This document shows, piece by piece, positions 4,752 to 61,930 of a stretch of 64,000 nt of DNA. The notes under the pieces were generated by a model. The model was not told the origin of the DNA. It made no database searches and was given only the letters and a program-made list of their open reading frames with translations. Source of the stretch: Lachnospiraceae bacterium (GTDB lineage Bacteria; Bacillota; Clostridia; Lachnospirales; Lachnospiraceae); NCBI GenBank assembly GCA_017543445.1, contig JAFYGB010000002.1, positions 1-64,000 on the forward strand, written 5' to 3'. The translations under genes and the position numbers were made by a program. The stretch's first letter is position 1. Each line of letters opens with the position of its first letter.

Positions 4752-7577
4752 TCAATAATCGACCATAACGTTTGCGTTCTCATCGATCTCACCCTCATAG
4801 GTGTGCAGGATCTTGATGTAGGTCGCGGTAGGAAGTGCTGCGCAGAGATCCTTACCATCTGCCTCCGTCATATCGATGTTCATGTAAGCGTGAAGTTCCT
4901 TGTTGTAGCCGATATCCTCAACTACGTCGTCCTCTGCCTCATAGCGGGCAATGTGGAACTTGTCGACCATTTCATTTACCAGATCGTCACGATCCTGGTT
5001 ATCCATGTCTGCAAGCCAGAAGGAGAACTCCATGCAGTACGCACGGTTCTTGGTGTTACCGAAGTGAGACGGGAAGCCGCCTGCGGACTTGGTACGGATG
5101 TTGTTTGCCTTGCAGTAGCTCTGGATCGGCGAGTTGTTCGCACAGAAGATCACAAGCTTCGGGATCATGTTCTGACCCATCTTCGGGAAGAAGATACGGT
5201 TTCCGAGGCGGGTAGCCATCGGGGAAATGGTGATACGTCCGAGGCTGCGGCAGTTATACAACGCCTTATCCTCGATCGCGATAACGCTGTTCGGAATGTT
5301 GATATCGGTAAGCGATGTACATTCGTTGAACGCGTTCTGCTCGATAACGGAGATACCATCCGGAAGGACTGCCGTTACGAGATCCTTACAGTGTGCACAT
5401 ACGTTCTGGCTGATGTAGGTCGTACCTGCCGGGAAATTGATCGTCTTGATCGCACAACGATAGAATGCACCATTTCCGACATCCTTCGTTTCCTCAGGAA
5501 GATCTGCAATCGCAAGGCTCGTACAATAGCTGAATGCGTAGCTGCGGATCGTCTTCAATGCCGGGGAGAAGATGACTTTCTTCAGGTTCTCACAACCGTG
5601 GAATGCTTCCGATCCTACGAAACGGATCGCATCGGAGAAGTAAACGCTCTCAATCTCTTCGTTACGGCAGAAAGCTCTTGCGGAGATCGCAACGACCTTA
5701 AAGCCTTCGATGGTATCGGGAAGGTGTACATCCTTCGCGCCGGTTCCGATGTACTGGTCGATATAGATCTCTCCGTCGACCAGACGATATTTATAGTTTT
5801 CAGTAGCGGTCTCATCTGCAGGCGATACAACATCCACTTCCACTGCGGACTGGATCTCATATACAACAGAGCCATCGGCGTTTTCAACGACCTTACCGTC
5901 GCCCTTCTTCGCCTTCTCTTCTGCTGCTGCCTTAGCTGCTGCTTCTGCTGCCGCTGCCTCTTCAGCTGCCTTCTTCTCGGCTTCTGCCTTCGCTGCTGCT
6001 TCTGCCTCAGCTGCTGCCTTTGCTTCTGCCTCAGCCTTCGCTGCTGCTTCCGCTGCCGCTGCTGCCTCTGCTGCCGCTGCTGCTGCTTCTGCTTCTGCCT
6101 TCGCTGCCGCTTCCGCCTCAGCCTTCGCTGCTGCCTCTGCTGCCGCTGCCGCCGCTGCTGCTTCTGCCTCAGCCTTCGCTGCTGCCTCTGCCTCAGCTGC
6201 TGCCTTTGCTTCTGCCTCAGCCTTCGCTGCCGCTTCTGCTGCAGCCTTTGCTTCTGCCTCAGCTCTTGCAGCCTGTTCCGCTGCTTCCTGCTCTGCCTTC
6301 TTCTTAGCTGCACGCTCTTCCGCGTCGGCAAATGTATCCGGATCGATCGGTGTACCACAAATCGGACACTCGGTCATGCCAGGCTCGATCGGACAGCAAC
6401 ATACGGAGCAGAAATATCCGGTATCATCCACATCATCCGCAAGTGCGGCGTGATTACGAAGGCCTTCGAGTTCTTCACGAAGACCGTCAAACGTATGACG
6501 TGCCTCCTCGATGGAACCGTCGATCGAGGCAACCGCTTCGCGAACATCGCCCTTCGTTCTCTCGAGCTCATCGATGCCTTCCTGCAACTGACGCTTCTGT
6601 GCATCACATGCTTCAAAGCGGCGATCCAGTTCTGCCTTCTGCTCGTCAACAACGGCGAAGCCCTTCTCTAACTCGCCTCTGCGCTCCTGCAGTGAAACCA
6701 GTTCGGCCGCCAGCTCATCCTTCTCGTGCTCGAGTTCGGAATAGCTCTGGCGGAGCTGCTTCTTCTGGTCATCCAGTTTCGACATCTCGACAGTCATATC
6801 ATTCTTGCGAATCATCATCGTATTCATCGCATTCTTGAGTTCCATCTTCTGGGATGTCATCGTGGCCAATGTCTGCTCGAATACAGCCTTCTGCTCCTGC
6901 ATGCTGTTGATGGTCTCTTCATAGCTGGTATACTTCTCATTCAGCTGGTTCAAAGAGCCCTGCACATTCTGACGATCCGTCTCCAGATCGTTCATGCGCT
7001 GCTGCAGTTCGCTGCGCTGATTATCCATCTGTACGAGGGTACGTTCCACGTCCGCCTTCTGCGTAAGCATGGCCTCCATACCACTCTGCATCTCCGAGAT
7101 ACGGCGGCTCAGATCTTCCATGCTGTTTGTAAAGCTCTGGGTCTGTGCATTCACCTCGTTGATCTTCTTATCCATCTCGGCGTTCTGTCCGTCCACCGCG
7201 GAGATACGACTCTGGAGCAATGTCTTCTGCTCGTCGATCGCGCCAAAACGCTTCTCGAGTTCGATACGCTTCTCATCCAGCGCAACAAAACGAGACTCCA
7301 ACTCGCTCTTCTGCGCGTCCATCTCCTTAAACTGTGCCTCGACCTGGGATTTCTGCTCTACCATCTGAGCGAACTTCGAACTCATCTCCGTCTTCTCAGT
7401 CTCAAGAGCAGTCACACGATCCAAAATGTTCTGGCGTTCCGAATCCAGAGCTGTGTTCTTCTCATCCAGCATCCCCTTCTGTGATTCCAACGCAGAAACG
7501 CGGTTCTCCAACTCATTTTGGAGTTTTCCTTCCAGTTCGTTGATTAGATTTAGTAAGTCTTGTTGTTTCTCATTCAT
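4752..7577 (-). CDS. Large coiled-coil / zinc-ribbon / Ala-rich / leucine-rich-repeat protein
   Basis: This 941-residue protein has a mosaic architecture. Residues 1-385 are an almost uninterrupted coiled coil of short repeats resembling MDAQKSELESRF. Residues 387-410 form a zinc ribbon (CSVCCCPI...CPICGTPI). Residues 422-550 are Ala/Glu/Lys low-complexity (AKAEAEAKAAAE), likely an extended helix. Residues 600-835 are BspA-type leucine-rich repeats (GSEAFHGCENLKKVIF, IEQNAFNECTSLTDINIPNSV). Residues 840-941 are an acidic unknown domain. There is no signal peptide, transmembrane helix or LPxTG motif, so it is probably cytoplasmic and not an adhesin, although BspA repeats usually occur on surface proteins. 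The function is unknown; an elongated scaffold is the simplest reading. The repeat-rich DNA creates long antisense reading frames, which were not taken as genes. Confidence 0.85.
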   Translation of the reverse strand: MNEKQQDLLNLINELEGKLQNELENRVSALESQKGMLDEKNTALDSERQNILDRVTALETEKTEMSSKFAQMVEQKSQVEAQFKEMDAQKSELESRFVALDEKRIELEKRFGAIDEQKTLLQSRISAVDGQNAEMDKKINEVNAQTQSFTNSMEDLSRRISEMQSGMEAMLTQKADVERTLVQMDNQRSELQQRMNDLETDRQNVQGSLNQLNEKYTSYEETINSMQEQKAVFEQTLATMTSQKMELKNAMNTMMIRKNDMTVEMSKLDDQKKQLRQSYSELEHEKDELAAELVSLQERRGELEKGFAVVDEQKAELDRRFEACDAQKRQLQEGIDELERTKGDVREAVASIDGSIEEARHTFDGLREELEGLRNHAALADDVDDTGYFCSVCCCPIEPGMTECPICGTPIDPDTFADAEERAAKKKAEQEAAEQAARAEAEAKAAAEAAAKAEAEAKAAAEAEAAAKAEAEAAAAAAAAEAAAKAEAEAAAKAEAEAAAAAAEAAAAAEAAAKAEAEAKAAAEAEAAAKAEAEKKAAEEAAAAEAAAKAAAEEKAKKGDGKVVENADGSVVYEIQSAVEVDVVSPADETATENYKYRLVDGEIYIDQYIGTGAKDVHLPDTIEGFKVVAISARAFCRNEEIESVYFSDAIRFVGSEAFHGCENLKKVIFSPALKTIRSYAFSYCTSLAIADLPEETKDVGNGAFYRCAIKTINFPAGTTYISQNVCAHCKDLVTAVLPDGISVIEQNAFNECTSLTDINIPNSVIAIEDKALYNCRSLGRITISPMATRLGNRIFFPKMGQNMIPKLVIFCANNSPIQSYCKANNIRTKSAGGFPSHFGNTKNRAYCMEFSFWLADMDNQDRDDLVNEMVDKFHIARYEAEDDVVEDIGYNKELHAYMNIDMTEADGKDLCAALPTATYIKILHTYEGEIDENANVMVDY

Positions 7578-19978: not shown

Positions 19979-20128
19979 TGTGACAGTGGGGACGGTTCTT
20001 TCTGTCACGGTGACAGTGGGGACGGTTCTTTTTGTCACGGTGACAGTGGGGACGGTTCTTTTTGTCACGGTGACAGTGGGGACGGTTCTTTTTGTCACGG
20101 TGACAAAAAGAACCGTCCCCACTGTCAC
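19979..20128. repeat. Tandem 30-bp palindromic repeat (REP-like), five units
   Basis: Four direct copies of a 30-bp unit, identical except for one base, span 19981-20100. An inverted copy follows at 20101-20128. Each unit is itself a hairpin: GTGACA and TGTCAC ends flank a GTGGGGACGGTTC core. The array fills the gap between the esterase promoter and the 3' end of the ABC gene. Short reading frames through it (GDSGDGSFCH repeats) are artefacts. Similar GGGGACGGTTC palindromes are, from memory, dispersed in many Firmicutes genomes and may be mobilised by RAYT-type transposases. No such gene is in this window. Confidence 0.9.
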
Positions 20129-22329: not shown

Positions 22330-22577
22330 AAATGCTCCTTTATAATGATACTGTGGATTTCTCCGCTACCTAATAGCGGAGGCTTTTCGAGCCTTGTATC
22401 ATATTTCCATGATACTACGGATTTCTCCGCGTTTCACGCTCTCGAAATCCTACAAACATTCGTATTCCGCTCATTTTTCTTCGAAAAATGGCTCCGTACT
22501 CATGTTTGTTCGGCTCTCAAGGTCCCGCTTTCGCATGCTAGCATGCGCATCGGGGACTTTTCGAGCCTTGTATCATG
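22330..22577. repeat. Intergenic cluster of related hairpin repeats
   Basis: This 250-bp gap between the ABC gene and the DUF1854 gene contains two direct copies of TGATACTRYGGATTTCTCCGC (from about 22346 and 22412). Each starts a segment that closes with a CGAGCCTTGTATCA end (about 22388-22401 and 22562-22575). The second segment encloses a CATTTTTC/GAAAAATG dyad and a hairpin GGCTCTCAAGGTCCCGC...GGGACTTTTCGAGCC. That last hairpin (22512-22576) matches the terminator region at 241-305 closely. No T-tract follows on the minus strand, so it is better described as a dispersed repeat than as a terminator. Confidence 0.7.
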
Positions 22578-30404: not shown

Positions 30405-30578
30405 TAGAGTCACGAAAGTGACACTTTTTGTTTTCATTTTCCTATTTCCTTCTTGTTATTTCCACACGGCCGGGTTTCCCCCCATAAGCCGTGTGGTTTT
30501 GTTATGCGCGGAAATTTACAGCGGGTGTGAAAAAGAGTGGACATGGAGTGTATCTCTTCCCCCGCCGCGCCCGTAAAG

Positions 30579-30740
30579 CAACCAAAAGGTTCTAATCTTT
30601 CCCTTCTGGTGGCCGTCCATACGCGGTTACTCACGCCTTTCCTCTCATAAAGCAACCATATACATCAAATCCTTCTCTTCCGGTGGTAGCACGTCCACAT
30701 CCTCTCGTCCATCCTCTCTCAAAAACAACCATAAATACCA
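30579..30740. repeat. 73-bp degenerate tandem repeats, upstream flank of the nuclease-like gene
   Basis: GCAACCA (or ACAACCA) occurs at 30579, 30652 and 30725, exactly 73 bp apart. In each complete unit a CTGGTGGC or CCGGTGGT element follows about 29 bases later, an imperfect inverted partner of GCAACCA. The remaining sequence is pyrimidine-rich and only partly conserved. The last copy runs into the ribosome binding site of the gene at 30763. Homologous units resume after the gene at 31284. Confidence 0.75.
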
Positions 30741-30762
30741 ACAAAACAAAGGAGACTCAATT

Positions 30763-31266
30763 ATGCAAATCAAAGAAATCACAAAAGAAATCGAAGTCCT
30801 CGAACAGAAACTACACAGTATTTCAGCCGAATTAGAGAAGCTGAGAAAGCTTCTTCCCAAGGGCGGTCGTCTTCATGCCCTCCGGCATGGAAAAACGTAT
30901 CAATATTATATGCGAAACGGTCTTCGTGTACGCTCGAAATCCGAGATCCTGATCGCGGATATCTTAGATGAGATGTCGATTCCCTTCCTCTATGAAAAGC
31001 CTCTGCTATTAAGTTCGGGCCTCTACCATCCTGACTTTACCTTGTTGAATATAAAGGAAAGAAAAGAAGTATATTGGGAGCATTTCGGAATGATGGATGA
31101 CATGGATTATCGTAACAGCGCCTTTAAAAAAATACGGAGATATGAAGCAAGTGGTTTATTTCACCCGGACTCGTTCCTCTGGACCTTTGAAACTGGACGC
31201 TATCCTTTAGAAACCAAGCCCCTTCGTCGAATGGTCAATGAACTAAAAATCAATTTGGGATACTGA
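30763..31266 (+). CDS. PD-(D/E)XK-like nuclease-fold protein embedded in repeats
   Basis: This 167-residue protein has a coiled-coil N-terminus (residues 3-31, EITKEIEVLEQKLHSISAEL). A compact domain follows with the order E61 (RSKSE), D91 (YHPDFTLL) and E106-x-H... in VYWEHFGMMDD. Together these resemble the catalytic E...PD...E-x core of PD-(D/E)XK (Vsr/restriction-like) nucleases; the usual lysine of ExK is replaced by H-F. GLRVRSKSEILIADIL and IPFLYEKPL fit the first helix and strand. AAAGGAG precedes the ATG. The gene is flanked on both sides by homologous 73-bp repeats, a layout expected of a small mobile or self-maintaining element. Activity and target are unknown. Confidence 0.72.
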   Translation: MQIKEITKEIEVLEQKLHSISAELEKLRKLLPKGGRLHALRHGKTYQYYMRNGLRVRSKSEILIADILDEMSIPFLYEKPLLLSSGLYHPDFTLLNIKERKEVYWEHFGMMDDMDYRNSAFKKIRRYEASGLFHPDSFLWTFETGRYPLETKPLRRMVNELKINLGY

Positions 31267-31283
31267 GCAGTCTTAGATATGCG

Positions 31284-31600
31284 GCAACCTAACATGCCCT
31301 TTTCGCCCATACTGGTTGTTTTTTCATCAAAATGCTGCGAGTTTTTTAGTGCCACTACCACCAAACAAACCTTCTTCAGCACTGCTGGTTGCTTTTCCGA
31401 TCGAAAGCTCAGTATTCCATTAGTGCCACAGCAACCAAAAAACCATTTTCTTCTCCTCTGGTTGCTTTTCCGCCATATTCTTCGGGTTTTCTCTGGCGCA
31501 ACGGCCACCAATAAGCCCATTTCGGCTCTCCTGGTTGTTTTTTCAACAAATAGCCTCCAGTTTCTCAGCTTAGCGACACGCTCCAAAGAAAAAGGCAACC
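31284..31600. repeat. 73-bp degenerate tandem repeats, downstream flank of the nuclease-like gene
   Basis: GGTTG occurs at 31314, 31387, 31460 and 31533, exactly 73 bp apart. The paired GCAACCA-like elements lie at 31284, 31357, 31431 and 31504, with one extra base in one unit. The best unit has perfect arms GCAACCA (31431) and TGGTTGC (31459) with a 21-base loop, followed by TTTTCC. A GTGCCAC-like block sits before most GCAACCA copies. A final GCAACCA at 31595 is out of phase. Because 73 is not a multiple of 3, translated repeats shift frame every unit, so the reading frames here are not genes. Confidence 0.8.
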
Positions 31601-54313: not shown

Positions 54314-54778
54314 TCACGTGGTCTGAGCGGTCTCGTACTTGGAGTCTGTGATACCGTTGAATACGCTCTTTGTCCAAGTGTACAGGCTCTGAGTCCAGGT
54401 GTAAGTTGCTGTGGATGTAGCGGTACCAGCGTAAGCCTTAGACTTAAACTTGTTAGCTGCGGTTGCGGAACCGTAAAGAGATGTGTGCATCTCGTTTACG
54501 AAAGTACCAGCCATGGAACCAAGACCAGTAACAGAAACAGCACCAGTGGAGTGTGTCATAGTAACAACAACAGTTGTAGAAGCTACGGTGTAGTACTTCT
54601 CATCAGCAAGGAGTGCAGATGCAGCCTTGTCCATATCGGAGATGATGGAGTCATCAGCACGGATACGGGTCTTCTCAACGTAACGGATGTACTGAGGAGC
54701 CAGGATACCCATAAGGACAGCCATGATAGCTACTACGATGATAAGTTCAACGAGTGAAAAACCTTTGTTATTCTTCAT
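54314..54778 (-). CDS. pilA: Type IV pilin, probable major pilin (first of three)
   Basis: This 154-residue prepilin has signal MKNNKG|FSLVELIIVVAIMAVLMGILAPQYIRYVEKTRIRADD, with Glu at +5 and Pro at +22. The globular part is Ala/Thr/Ser-rich (KAASALLADEKYYTVASTTVVVTMTHSTGAVSVTG) with no cysteines. It has the best promoter of the three, a canonical ribosome binding site (AAAGGAAG) and a strong terminator, so it is the likeliest major subunit. The degenerate 64-bp repeat array begins about 280 bases upstream. The codons in the 3' half favour GCT/ACA more than neighbouring genes, as expected for an abundant protein (by eye). Confidence 0.9.
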   Translation of the reverse strand: MKNNKGFSLVELIIVVAIMAVLMGILAPQYIRYVEKTRIRADDSIISDMDKAASALLADEKYYTVASTTVVVTMTHSTGAVSVTGLGSMAGTFVNEMHTSLYGSATAANKFKSKAYAGTATSTATYTWTQSLYTWTKSVFNGITDSKYETAQTT

Positions 54779-54887
54779 AATTTTTTCTTCCTTTCACATA
54801 TGGATTATTGTGTTTCTTCCGATCCCCTACAAACCGGAAGGTTTTTCTCGGATGCGTTTCTTTTGTTCGCATCTCTTTGATGATTAA

Positions 54888-54954
54888 GTTATACCACATG
54901 GACTAATCCCCCGCAATACATGTTTTGTAAGTGTACGTTTGTTTGTGTGAGCGT
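54888..54954 (-). promoter_or_regulatory. Promoter and upstream motif of the first pilin gene
   Basis: On the reverse strand the order is ACGCTCAC (54947-54954), 9 bases, CGTACACTTACA (54926-54937), 9 bases, TTGCGG (54911-54916), 17 bases, TATAAC (54888-54893). The two blocks look like direct half-sites of an activator placed just upstream of a poor -35 box. The leader is about 105 bases with a CCTTCCGG...TCGGAAG dyad. Confidence 0.78.
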
Positions 54955-55049
54955 ACAAACAAAGCTTTTTTTCGTTTTGCGAGCGTTGATTTATACGGCT
55001 TTTCGTTGAAGGGTATAGATGATCGAAAGCATTGAAAATACTAGGTTTC

Positions 55050-55905
55050 CTACCCCATTCTTCTTGGATTTCTCCACCCGCTCCGTTTTGCACGTACGTA
55101 AACGAACGCCAGGCCCGATCACCTGCGAGCGTATCCCTGGTTTATCCCGTTGTGCGCATATATCTAGTAGCTCCGGCGCAGATCTGCCACACGCTTTTTT
55201 CTTGACTCCCGTTGTTTTGAGCGTATGGCAAGAGGCTTCAGCACGTGTCTCTTACGCGCTTTTTCTTGATTTCTCTTGTTTTACGCGTATGGCATAGGAC
55301 CCCAGCGGGTATCTCTTACGCGTTTTTTCCTGAATATCTTCGATTTGCGCGTATGGCTTAAGGCTACAGAACGATTATCCTACGCGCAGTTTCTTATATT
55401 TTCTTGTTTCACGAGTATGGAAAGCGCCATAACCGCGACTCTCCTACGCGTAACTTCTTGAAATTCCTTGTTCTGCGCGTATAGAAACAGACACAGGCGC
55501 AGATCTTCTACTCTCTTTTTCTTGTTTTTCTTTGTTTTGCGCATATGGAAACGGGCTTCAGTACGGTACAGCTACGCGTATTTTCTTGATTTTCTTAAAT
55601 TTGCGCGTATCGAAACACACTCTGGCGCGGGGCTTCTACGCGTATTTTCTCGGTTTTCCCTTTTTTGCGCGTATGACAAGCAGCTCCAGCGATGATCCAC
55701 TACGCGCTTATTCTTGTTTTTCTTCCTTTTGCGCGTATGAAAAGCTGCTTCAGTGCCGATCTACTACGCGCTTTTTCCCGATTTACTTCGTTTAGCGCGT
55801 AAAACTTGCTGCTCCAATGCTGATCCACCATGCGTTTTTCACGGTTTCCGTTGTTTTGCGCATATGTCACAAGTTCTCCCCCGGTTCTTCTACGTGCATT
55901 TCGGT
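55050..55905. repeat. Degenerate tandem array with a 64-bp period between pilC and pilA
   Basis: GCGCGTATG-like elements start at 55090, 55154, 55219, 55283, 55347, 55411, 55475, 55539, 55603, 55667, 55731, 55795 and 55858. The interval is 64 bp in ten of twelve cases and 65 or 63 in the others. Each unit reads GCGCGTATG, about 24 loosely conserved bases (consensus near AAGCAGCTTCAGCGCGGATC), CTACGCG, then about 24 bases of T/C-rich sequence (TTTTTCTTGATTTTCTTTG). GCGCGTA and TACGCGC can pair; where one outer base changes (A for G) the partner also changes (T for C). The units differ widely in sequence, so this is not a CRISPR array. 64 is not a multiple of 3, so it is not coding. Confidence 0.85.
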
Positions 55906-55919
55906 TTCAGGCCTACCCT

Positions 55920-56236
55920 TGAGTTGAGAAACCTAAGCATTTACTAGAAAAGCAAGGATGCTTAATCCTTTCCTAAACATTTAAAGGCATCCGCCCTCAG
56001 CCAAATGTTTAACTGCGGCCTCTCCTCGCGGAGCGCCGCCGTTAAGTATCTGGGTTGTAATGATAGTTCGGGCTTAGCCCTCTCCCAAATGTTTTGGGTT
56101 GTTGCCCAGGTATACAAGGAAGGTTTGCTCCGCAAACCCTCAGAGGCTCGAAATTTATTTTACCCCGGCACAGCAAGCTGCACCGGGGTAAAACCAAATT
56201 TCTCACATGATAGTTCGGGCTCCGCCCTCACTATCA
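55920..56236. repeat. Hairpin-rich non-coding segment downstream of pilC
   Basis: Two copies of ATGATAGTTCGGGCT lie at about 56057 and 56199; the second closes as TGATAGT...ACTATCA right at the pilC stop. Other hairpins are ACCCCGG...CCGGGGT (56163-56190) and AAGGTTTGC...GCAAACC (56120-56139). GGAAGGTTTGCTCCGCAAACC has a relative at 61974-62000. No T-tract suitable for termination follows any of them on the minus strand. The segment separates the pilB-pilT-pilC unit from the 64-bp array. Confidence 0.6.
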
Positions 56237-57448
56237 TTACATCATTTCGCTGAGGCTCTCGTACAGTGTGAGCATAGGCATCAGACATGCGCCGATGAGT
56301 ACGCCGACAACGCCGGCCAGCAGGATAATGATCATAGGCTCCATTGCAGTCATAAGACCTGCAACGGCAACTTCAACTTCTTCTTCGAAGTAACCGGCAC
56401 AACGATCGAGCATTTCCTCGATATTACCGGTATCTTCACCGATCTTCGTCATGTGACAGATCATGACCGGGAACAGACCGCTCTTACGAAGCGGGTCAGA
56501 CATCTGAACACCCTTTTCTACTTCGTCCTTCGCATAAAGGAGTGCATCCTTATACAGAACGTTAGGCATGTTCTTCGATGTGATCTCGAGCGCATCTACG
56601 ATCGAGATACCTGCGGAAAGCAGTGTGGACATGGTACGTGCAAAACGAGCAGCTGCGGACTTCGTGATAACCGGTCCGACAAACGGCATCTTCATGCTCG
56701 TACGGCCGATGATGACCTGACCGGTCGGGGAAGCCGCAAACACTCGCCATGCGATAACGATAATTACGATAACCGCAAGGAGAATAACGACATTCGCCTT
56801 CATCCAGTCGGACATGGCTACAACGACCTTCGTCAGTGTAGGAAGTTCCGTATCGAGATCCTTAAACATCTCGGTGAACTGCGGGATAACGAAGTTCAAC
56901 ATGATGATGACAACGGCAACAGCAACTACCAATACCACGATCGGGTATACGAGTGCTTTCTTAATGGTCGCCTTCAAGCGGGCATCCTTCTCGAACTGGA
57001 TCGCCAGACGGTCGAATGAGTTCTCGAGGGAACCGGATGCTTCACCGGCATCGACCATGTTTACCATCATCGGGGTAAATACGTTTGGATGTTCCTTCAG
57101 GCTTCGTGCCAGATTTTCACCCTTTGCTACGTTTGACATAACGTCACGGAGTGCGGCCTGCATGATTTTGTTGTCGCACTGGTCGGCCAACATACCGAAT
57201 GCATCGACGATGGATACGCCGGCATTCAAAAGGCTCACCATCTGACGGCAGAACACCGCCATGGTACGAGGCTTTACGGAGGAGCCGCCCAGGGAAACGT
57301 TCTCAGCGAACATGGATTCCTTAACCTGAATAGGAATAAGGCCTTCCAGTTTTAGTGTACGCTCCGCTCTGGATGAATCAGGTGCTTCGATTTTGCCTTT
57401 ACGTTTGGCGCCTTTTTGATCGACGGCCACATATTGATAGGTGGGCAT
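56237..57448 (-). CDS. pilC: Type IV pilus inner-membrane platform protein
   Basis: This 403-residue GspF/PilC protein connects the cytoplasmic ATPases to the growing pilus. The start MPTYQYVAVDQKGAKRKGKIEAPDSSRAERTL is the family signature. Two T2SSF repeats (about 70-190 and 270-395) each carry a membrane helix pair; FCRQMVSLLNAGVSIVDAFGML and FARTMSTLLSAGISIVDALEI are the matching repeat starts. AGGAGG precedes the ATG. It follows pilT by 155 bases. Confidence 0.96.
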   Translation of the reverse strand: MPTYQYVAVDQKGAKRKGKIEAPDSSRAERTLKLEGLIPIQVKESMFAENVSLGGSSVKPRTMAVFCRQMVSLLNAGVSIVDAFGMLADQCDNKIMQAALRDVMSNVAKGENLARSLKEHPNVFTPMMVNMVDAGEASGSLENSFDRLAIQFEKDARLKATIKKALVYPIVVLVVAVAVVIIMLNFVIPQFTEMFKDLDTELPTLTKVVVAMSDWMKANVVILLAVIVIIVIAWRVFAASPTGQVIIGRTSMKMPFVGPVITKSAAARFARTMSTLLSAGISIVDALEITSKNMPNVLYKDALLYAKDEVEKGVQMSDPLRKSGLFPVMICHMTKIGEDTGNIEEMLDRCAGYFEEEVEVAVAGLMTAMEPMIIILLAGVVGVLIGACLMPMLTLYESLSEMM

Positions 57449-60655: not shown

Positions 60656-61930
60656 TTAATTCACAACGTGAACCGTCAGAACCGTCACTGCAGAATTGTG
60701 TTTATCTGTATCCTTGACGGAGACTTTCAGCACATAAGTACCGACCTTATTCGTGGAGAATTTATCCCATCCTTCGACACGGATACGCTGTACCAGCACG
60801 TCACGGCTGTCCTTATCGTCATAGAGCTGATCGATCAGGTTCCGATAGTGGAAATACGAGCCTTTCTTCACCGTGACTTCGGTCTGTTTCAAAGTGATGA
60901 CCGGGATGCCGTTATTGACCGGTGCGGGCTTCTCTTCGTTCGTCTCGATCACGAGCTGGCAGGTCAGGCCCTGATAGCGGATGTTGAATACATTCTTACC
61001 CTTAACGAACGTCTTGCCGACGTCGTCGCACTCCCAACCGTAGATATCGATGCGTTTACCATTATCAGTAACGCCCTGAAGCAAAATGTCGTTTCCGACC
61101 GACGTTTCGCCGATGTAGCGCTGCGGTCCGATGAATACGGGAATGATCTCGTAGATCGTCTCGCCGTTCGGGCCGATCGCCGTAGGCTTATCTGCCGTTG
61201 TAGGCTCAGGTGTCGTTTCTTCCGGTGTCGTCTCCTCCGGTGTCGTTTCCTCCGGAGTCGTCTCCTCGGCAGTCGTTACCTCTGGAGTGGTCTCCTCAGA
61301 AGTTGTCTCTTCCGGTGTCGTCTCTTCCAACGTTGTGGGTGCCTCGGTCGTCACCTCTGCGGTCGTGACTTCAGCCGTGGTTTTTTCCTCGGTAGATGCC
61401 TCTGTGCTCTCCTCGGTAGACTCCGGTGCCTGTGTCGGCGCCTGTGTCGTTTCTACCGGCACCTGCGTCTCTTCCGGTCTATTCTTATCCGGATCCGTTT
61501 TATTCGATGCGCTCTCCTTCGTCAGACTGCGGACGCACGTCTCGGTCGTCAGGTTACCTCTGCTGTCGCGCACCTGATACGAAACGCGGACCTCCGTCTC
61601 TGAGATCTTCTCAGTCGCAGGAAGAACGATGATTTTCTTCGTGATATCGCCGTCACGGTTATCCGTGGCGGTAACGCCTGCCAAAAGGCCGGACGTGTCC
61701 CCTCCGGGCACGTAGCTCACCGGATCCTCGGAAAATGCGATCACCGGCGCCTTTCGGTCATCCGACAAATAAATGAGCAAGTAAATAAGACCGAGAACCG
61801 CTACAATGATCCCCAGCTGAATGGCCTCCCGCTTTAAGCGGTGTACTTTTCTCCATCTCGTCCCGATTTTCATAAGGTCTTTCATCCTCTTGAGGCGGTC
61901 CGACCCCCGTGTCGGATCCATGCCTTGCAT
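60656..61930 (-). CDS. Membrane-anchored surface protein with DUF5011/Ig-like domains and a Thr/Glu repeat stalk
   Basis: This protein of up to 424 residues has a basic N-terminus and one transmembrane helix (about residues 37-58, GIIVAVLGLIYLLIYL). An Ig-like DUF5011 domain follows (APVIAFSEDPVSYVPGGD...ATDNRDGDITKKI, about 62-140). A stalk of Thr/Glu/Pro repeats (TTPEETTPEETT, about 150-245) and a C-terminal beta domain ending DTDKHNSAVTVLTVHVVN complete it. The orientation places the C-terminus outside. The start is uncertain: ATGs at 61930, 61921, 61885 and 61873 are possible. It precedes the pilB promoter but is not clearly part of the pilus unit. The role is unknown; it may be an extracellular binding protein. 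Confidence 0.75.
   Translation of the reverse strand: MQGMDPTRGSDRLKRMKDLMKIGTRWRKVHRLKREAIQLGIIVAVLGLIYLLIYLSDDRKAPVIAFSEDPVSYVPGGDTSGLLAGVTATDNRDGDITKKIIVLPATEKISETEVRVSYQVRDSRGNLTTETCVRSLTKESASNKTDPDKNRPEETQVPVETTQAPTQAPESTEESTEASTEEKTTAEVTTAEVTTEAPTTLEETTPEETTSEETTPEVTTAEETTPEETTPEETTPEETTPEPTTADKPTAIGPNGETIYEIIPVFIGPQRYIGETSVGNDILLQGVTDNGKRIDIYGWECDDVGKTFVKGKNVFNIRYQGLTCQLVIETNEEKPAPVNNGIPVITLKQTEVTVKKGSYFHYRNLIDQLYDDKDSRDVLVQRIRVEGWDKFSTNKVGTYVLKVSVKDTDKHNSAVTVLTVHVVN

Follow-up and report, generated by a model that had tools for sequence, protein, structure and literature searches.

A phased 64-bp repeat array at a Lachnospiraceae pil locus as a probable orphan site array of a nuclease-like protein

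We analyzed a stretch of 64,000 nucleotides from a Lachnospiraceae bacterium (assembly GCA_017543445.1, contig JAFYGB010000002.1, positions 1 to 64,000; hereafter the window), in which a tandem array of 64-bp units lies between a pilC-like gene and the gene for a major pilin-like protein (pilA). We propose that a nuclease-like protein has cognate site arrays of which this one is an orphan copy, spread by DNA breaks in a manner resembling REP repeats and their RAYT proteins. Taken as a whole this account is probable, and the part of it that identifies the array as one of the protein's site arrays is, considered alone, very likely. Strings of this type occur at many places in rumen and gut bacteria, each type with a nuclease-like protein of its own and a spacing of whole helical turns, and they point to a self-spreading or regulatory DNA system.

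The array and its relatives in other genomes

The array at the pil locus comprises the following features.

55124 to 55864, minus strand: gene-less (orphan) phased array of the TACGCGC family with a unit of 64 bp, defined by self-identity and element search
55253 to 55801, minus strand: nine consecutive 37-bp inverted-repeat elements, TACGCGC-N23-GCGCGTA, in 64-bp steps
55124 to 55160, minus strand: outlying element with three arm mismatches

The 64-bp periodicity noticed in an earlier, sequence-only reading of the window is real. Self-identity of positions 55001-55950 falls from 54% at a lag of 64 to 52% at 128, 49% at 192 and 46% at 256, and no other lag below 400 (non-multiples of 64) exceeds 35%. 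The nine central elements, starting at 55253, 55317, 55381, 55445, 55509, 55573, 55637, 55701 and 55765, stand in exact 64-bp register, some of them with one or two arm mismatches. When up to four arm mismatches were allowed we found 11 matches (the ten elements and one out-of-register match at 55282), whereas 200 base shuffles averaged 0.21. Either end of the array has a degenerate, shifted unit, at about 55188 and 55828. The array thus has 11-12 units, with a certain extent of approximately 55124-55864, rather than the thirteen or more first counted. Half-site starts, thought to recur every 31-33 bp, in fact alternate between 30 bp, the distance from the start of TACGCGC to that of GCGCGTA within an element, and 34 bp. 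The array is A-rich on the minus strand, which is also the sense strand for both pilC and pilA.

The units are strongly diverged, with a mean pairwise identity of 0.58. Identity is 0.69 in the arms versus 0.55 in the remainder of the unit (723 of 20,000 random draws scored as high). Measured against their consensus, the nine central elements contain 188 substitutions and zero shifts; the array-free region upstream of pilA, compared with two relatives, has 46 substitutions with four gaps and 48 with three. In the pil-locus array, length has been kept far better than sequence. At gathering thresholds Rfam gave no match in the array, and its only matches in the window were a tRNA and Clostridiales-1 (RF01699, 119.6 bits, positions 22410-22575, minus strand), a catalogued RNA that is not known to have an assigned function.

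TACGCGC arrays are also found at several other places in the window genome and in six of six genomes of its genus, with roughly 6-14 intergenic places per assembly in six assemblies (counts that omit the gene-adjacent array of the window genome and, in at least two assemblies, take one split array as two). When one genome per species was scanned for the exact pattern, 87 stretches were recovered, mostly from rumen Lachnospiraceae and including the isolates G41, C7 and RM5; Methylobacterium, Nonomuraea, Burkholderia and a few others gave single pattern matches that resemble chance hits. The half-site family is patchy, since only two of 299 genomes of the bacterial family, both of the window genus, exceed two pattern matches. 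In isolate C7 a single contig carries several short TACGCGC arrays. At loci L031, L033, L064, L104, L205 and L211 the contig ends fall within arrays, and contigs C74 and C57 of the window genome may join; because several contigs terminate within them, the arrays are probably undercounted in the assemblies.

All 34 exact sites of the window genome lie within arrays, 32 with a gap of 23 bp and two with a gap of 24, and the gap is 23 in 35 of 37 sites of G41, C7 and RM5, with gaps of 15-31 allowed. Across 89 chained arrays, 394 of 422 elements have an arm distance of 30 bp and 318 of 333 intervals a period of 64 or 63 bp. Unlike the comparison in G41, C7 and RM5, this set is not blind to length, because it was retrieved with gaps of 21-25 and 25-29, and it includes a few chance or overlapping arrays. 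Loops and linkers vary between arrays in sequence but hardly in length. The intervals between arms are alike within an array and different between arrays, unit numbers vary, and at one locus of the window genome the loop sequence is unrelated to that of the other TACGCGC loci. The AT-rich RM5 retains both arms and spacing, with two steps of 75 bp, equal to 64 bp plus about one helical turn. Exact spacing combined with free intervening sequence argues for a protein acting on double-stranded DNA. Strand bias was considered as a sign of transcription and left unused: 29 sense and 3 antisense arrays become about 15 and 6 (p 0.08) when orthologous places, merged by hand, are counted once.

Nuclease-like genes, their arrays and helical spacing

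In the window genome (G000:C54:162203-163006), and likewise in relatives and RM5, the gene for a protein of 265-268 amino acids comes directly after a TACGCGC array. The protein belongs to no Pfam or NCBIfam family. Its nuclease domain appears to be of the PD-(D/E)XK/EDxHD type, the nearest fold probably being that of the EDxHD (I-Bth0305I) homing endonucleases. E162, D193 and H209 are present in 38 of 38 proteins and D214 in 31 of 38; these putative catalytic positions are assigned by analogy with the EDxHD motif. Close orthologues (48-100% identity) occur in the array genomes, namely G000 (the window genome), G001, G002, G003, G005, G41 (two), C7 and RM5, while G004 has a fragment. In a set of 50 chosen genomes, made up of the 9 known array genomes and 41 of the 299 family genomes, those 41 have neither the clade nor the arrays, although G063 has a single pattern match. 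In C7 (L177, L195) the clade gene is preceded by decayed sites and also by a tandem of GCAAGATCTCGCTTTCATAGTAATATTTCATTTTCACA-like units.

The protein has many paralogues in Clostridia, up to 9 per genome; surveys (limits 1e-25 and 1e-40) recovered them from 31 of the 196 genomes sampled in the order and from 19 of 341 in the class. A phased inverted-repeat array lies within 1.5 kb of 67 of the 113 genes surveyed (63 upstream, 9 downstream, 5 both), and the base rate was 3 in 120 bulk windows, taken from the window, one G000 stretch, three of G41 and two of RM5. All three of these hits fall in the window, two in the pil array and one at a tandem repeat at 19980. Because the TACGCGC-clade genes were found through their adjoining arrays, they provide no independent evidence of linkage; with that clade removed, the first set has an array at 35 of 54 genes. 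In two protein-only sets, arrays were detected at 14 of 29 genes by any match (11 of 29 under a two-hit rule) and at 16 of 22 genes, all upstream in the latter set. The duplicates L198 (= L248), L249 (= L189) and L299 (= L217) were removed before counting, and the detector, which requires exact 6-mers, misses decayed arrays such as those of C7 and of a second module in the window.

The arms change with the protein. An arm 6-mer is shared by 15 of 16 pairs at protein identities of at least 80% and by 9 of 10 pairs at 70-80%, compared with 1 of 17 at 60-70%, 7 of 54 at 50-60% and 4 of 1,072 below 50%, and 31 distinct arm groups were seen. As judged by these sequence comparisons, half-sites follow protein relatedness across the family. 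Sister arrays with other half-sites also occur, often close to the TACGCGC arrays: a search for alternating 7-mers and their complements gave 117 clusters in 1.2 Mb (114 stretches, partly overlapping) and none in block-shuffled sequence. These arrays have periods near 52, 61-62 and 73-75 bp, with single clusters at 59 and 96. A second family, GCGAACA, likewise forms arrays beside genes of the nuclease-like family as well as gene-less ones within the genus; among the matches listed, it has 13-22 sites in each of five genomes with zero control matches, and gaps of 21-22 in nearly all sites.

The second module in the window consists of a gene and two array remnants.

30763 to 31266, plus strand: gene of the same nuclease-like family, 167 amino acids, identified by alignment
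30578 to 30731, plus strand: upstream array remnant, GCAACCA..TGGTTGC, forward arms 73-74 bp apart
31284 to 31538, plus strand: downstream array remnant with the same GCAACCA..TGGTTGC arms, 73-74 bp apart

The 167-amino-acid gene is probably decayed, as most of the N-terminal half is missing from the alignment. Arms of the upstream remnant have up to one mismatch or take the form GCCACCA/TGGTGGC, and the exact detector misses both remnants (30578-31538).

Periods across the protein family are quantised. For 34 array-bearing clades drawn at 55% identity, median periods fall at 41-42, 51-54, 61-64, 73-74 and 83-85 bp; 32 of the 34 are no more than 1.5 bp from a multiple of 10.5 bp, and a step of 10.55 bp fits best (R 0.86, phase near zero). 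Clades drawn at 45% gave a step of 10.50 bp with 18 of 19 within 1.5 bp, and those at 70% a step of 10.60 bp with 42 of 47, a concentration reached by none of 2,000 uniform draws (the clade p-values assume independent clades). Under a stricter rule of at least five hits and an unambiguous period, which left 49 genes, 35 of 37 clades at 70% lie within 1.5 bp (best step 10.6), as do 24 of 27 at 55% and 14 of 16 at 45%; in the last two, a clade that averages 85 and 96 bp pulls the best step down to 10.1 and 10.05. The period was taken as the smallest well-supported one in the 113-gene survey and as the commonest under the stricter rule, which dropped L237, L272 and L274 as ambiguous; L245 (53 or 71 bp) was scored as 53 in the earlier survey.

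Most clades have one arm distance of approximately 28-32 bp, and the other arm distance takes values of about 21, 33, 45, 56 and 66 bp (L199, L200, L295 and L296 are exceptions). Periods that step by one helical turn indicate that the spacing is read on double-stranded DNA, and on the simplest reading one dimer spans the constant arm pair of about three turns, while the linker just phases neighbours. Two suggestions made from the window alone are borne out here: a constraint on length and helical phase, and half-sites that look like sites on one face for a DNA-binding protein. Both are strongly supported by the whole-turn periods across the protein family and by the two +11-bp steps of RM5.

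Other repeats in the window include the tandem at 19980-20128, 4.2 copies of the 30-bp unit GTGACAGTGGGGACGGTTCTTTTTGTCACG, which resembles a REP-like motif of clostridia (no Y1_Tnp was found in G000), and low-complexity tandem repeats within or overlapping open reading frames at 5918-6284 and 61205-61328.

Proposed mechanism and competing explanations

In the mechanism that we propose, the protein would bind as a dimer across one 37-bp element, with its half-sites about three turns apart, and successive dimers would align along the same DNA face. Cutting by the nuclease domain, within the array or next to it, would be followed by repair that may copy arrays or resize them by whole units. Such copying would spread arrays to new intergenic places and keep their units uniform, as is thought to occur for REP/BIME via RAYT. 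We put forward more tentatively, as a serious possibility, the broader claim that a nuclease family with changeable half-site specificities gauges DNA by its helical phase and spreads phased landing arrays of its own across the chromosomes of Clostridia. It would form a self-propagating system of gene and array, unrelated to RAYT, with a natural code that links protein to DNA specificity.

An alternative that we consider unlikely, yet the best of the rivals, is that the arrays serve the host as architectural or regulatory DNA (a domain boundary, a supercoil sink or an autoregulator), nuclease activity being secondary. The BIME-2/gyrase arrays of E. coli would be a loose model. What speaks most for a host role is that array places are retained in several species (a positional comparison that omitted arrays of fewer than three elements, with three exceptions, and two chance loci). 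Consistent with it, none of the TACGCGC arrays listed overlaps a called gene, helical phase is constrained, and an array directly upstream of a gene fits autoregulation. However, apart from the nuclease-like gene, the genes flanking TACGCGC arrays are mixed housekeeping genes with no theme by eye among the 40 proteins read, the catalytic-type residues are invariant in all 38 proteins, and the array is present or absent at pil between close relatives.

Restriction-like defence, in which the nuclease would act on invaders carrying half-sites and chromosomal arrays would hold or license it, appears improbable. The C-terminal nuclease domain is common to the PADLOC phage-defence candidate PDC-S68 and to AAA ATPase/helicase proteins on plasmids, and the many half-sites and up to 9 paralogues per genome would suit such a system. 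Restriction, however, needs no exact whole-turn arrays, and viral contigs lack the TACGCGC array pattern. Eight loci on viral contigs carry the C-terminal domain only, and in phage and plasmid records the one full-length match is in the short unverified record MT839528, in which no array was found.

There is little likelihood that the upstream tandem array is the antitoxin RNA for the nuclease in an arrangement like type III toxin-antitoxin. Although a small nuclease-like gene with a tandem array immediately before it is what such a system would look like, gene-less arrays are common, the sequence between arms is free while the periods step by helical turn, a property of DNA, and five paralogues gave no ToxN/CptN/TenpN-type match in Pfam or NCBIfam.

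The sequence-only reading had considered the array an RNA or single-stranded DNA hairpin array, or a cis-regulator of pilA. The relevant features of the locus are as follows.

54314 to 54778, minus strand: major pilin-like gene (pilA), flanking only
56237 to 57448, minus strand: presumed pilC-like gene (named from its sequence), flanking only
54779 to 55013, minus strand: region upstream of pilA common to the array-free relatives G005 and G001 (approximately 77% identity), with the array just beyond

The gap between pilC and pilA is 1,458 bp in the window genome versus about 470 bp in two close relatives, G005, whose pilA protein is 94% identical to that of the window, and G001. No array is present in the complete gap of either relative, and clearly shared gap sequence is limited to the pilA-proximal 230 bp or so. 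Similarly, G004 has no array in the 390 bp upstream of pilA. We looked for an insertion signature at pil and found no clean boundary. Contigs of G002 and G003 start inside pilA; breaks inside this gene (starts of G001:C30, G003:C4 and G002:C30) look as if the gene were strain-variable. Because the array is absent between pilC and pilA in G005 and G001, and such arrays have many unrelated neighbours elsewhere, it is not a pilin element. The 'strongest pilin promoter' placed beside it could not be confirmed, as 54700-56300 has no more promoter-like sites than expected from shuffles (3 versus a mean of 2.1). The arms can pair and the array does lie upstream of pilA in the window genome, but the covariation claimed for the outer arm bases is at chance level, with 154 of 500 shuffles scoring as high for the hairpin described and 500 of 500 for an alternative hairpin. 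The TACGCGC arms are kept as sequence, with the intervening stretch fixed only in length. A hairpin or pilA-regulatory role is therefore very unlikely. Neutral minisatellite debris, suggested by varying unit numbers and by units homogenised within arrays and diverged in the window, is just as hard to credit and is refuted as the main account, because periods are quantised and arrays are linked to a gene family, and spacing is constant across loci, species and unrelated loop sequences.

A literature search found nothing like this gene-array system, although it covered few subscription papers and preprints and is thus weak evidence of novelty. If the site-array explanation with spread by breaks is true, the system would be a second answer, unrelated to REP/RAYT, to the question of where intergenic repeats of bacteria come from and how they are maintained, and that question would become testable, with each gene predicting its own half-site and arrays. 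The whole-turn rule provides a rare natural spacing series of 4 to 8 turns, perhaps 9, for phase-reading studies, and the pairs of half-sites and proteins are a data set for the DNA-recognition code in a nuclease family unnamed in Pfam and NCBIfam.

Comparison with known systems

As in CRISPR arrays and TIGR arrays, the repeats described here adjoin a protein gene. Unlike CRISPR, there are no unique spacers, inter-arm stretches are alike within an array, and the five paralogues have no Cas match in Pfam; unlike TIGR-Tas, they have no Nop match in Pfam. The C-terminal nuclease domain is shared with PDC-S68, but the models of that candidate span 1,202-1,273 positions, whereas the protein here consists of the nuclease domain and a short N-terminal half only.

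The EDxHD homing endonucleases (I-Bth0305I) probably have the nearest fold and appear to share the conserved E, D and H, and a review describes an exceptionally long target for this family, nearly 60 bp, bound as a dimer (PMC3943268). In contrast to them, the protein here is free-standing at the loci seen, has many paralogues per genome, and keeps its own site array beside the gene and elsewhere.

The remaining comparison is with REP/BIME repeats and their RAYT (TnpA-REP) transposases, and with REPINs (PMC2817692, PMC8266576, PMC3116915). The protein here is not a Y1/HUH transposase. A search with PF01797 (Y1/HUH) gave no match in G000, G001, C7 (G042) and RM5 (G043), one match each in G003 and G005, and 8, mostly partial, in G41 (G041); a RAYT as the actor was rejected on the absence of PF01797 from those first four genomes. 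In both systems a dedicated nuclease- or transposase-like gene adjoins the repeats, copies without a gene are scattered through intergenic DNA, the units are inverted and regularly spaced, and repeats and protein change together. In place of the compact hairpins of REP/RAYT, the arrays here have wide half-site pairs at a mostly fixed distance of about 30 bp and whole-turn periods, and they form long tandem arrays upstream of the gene.
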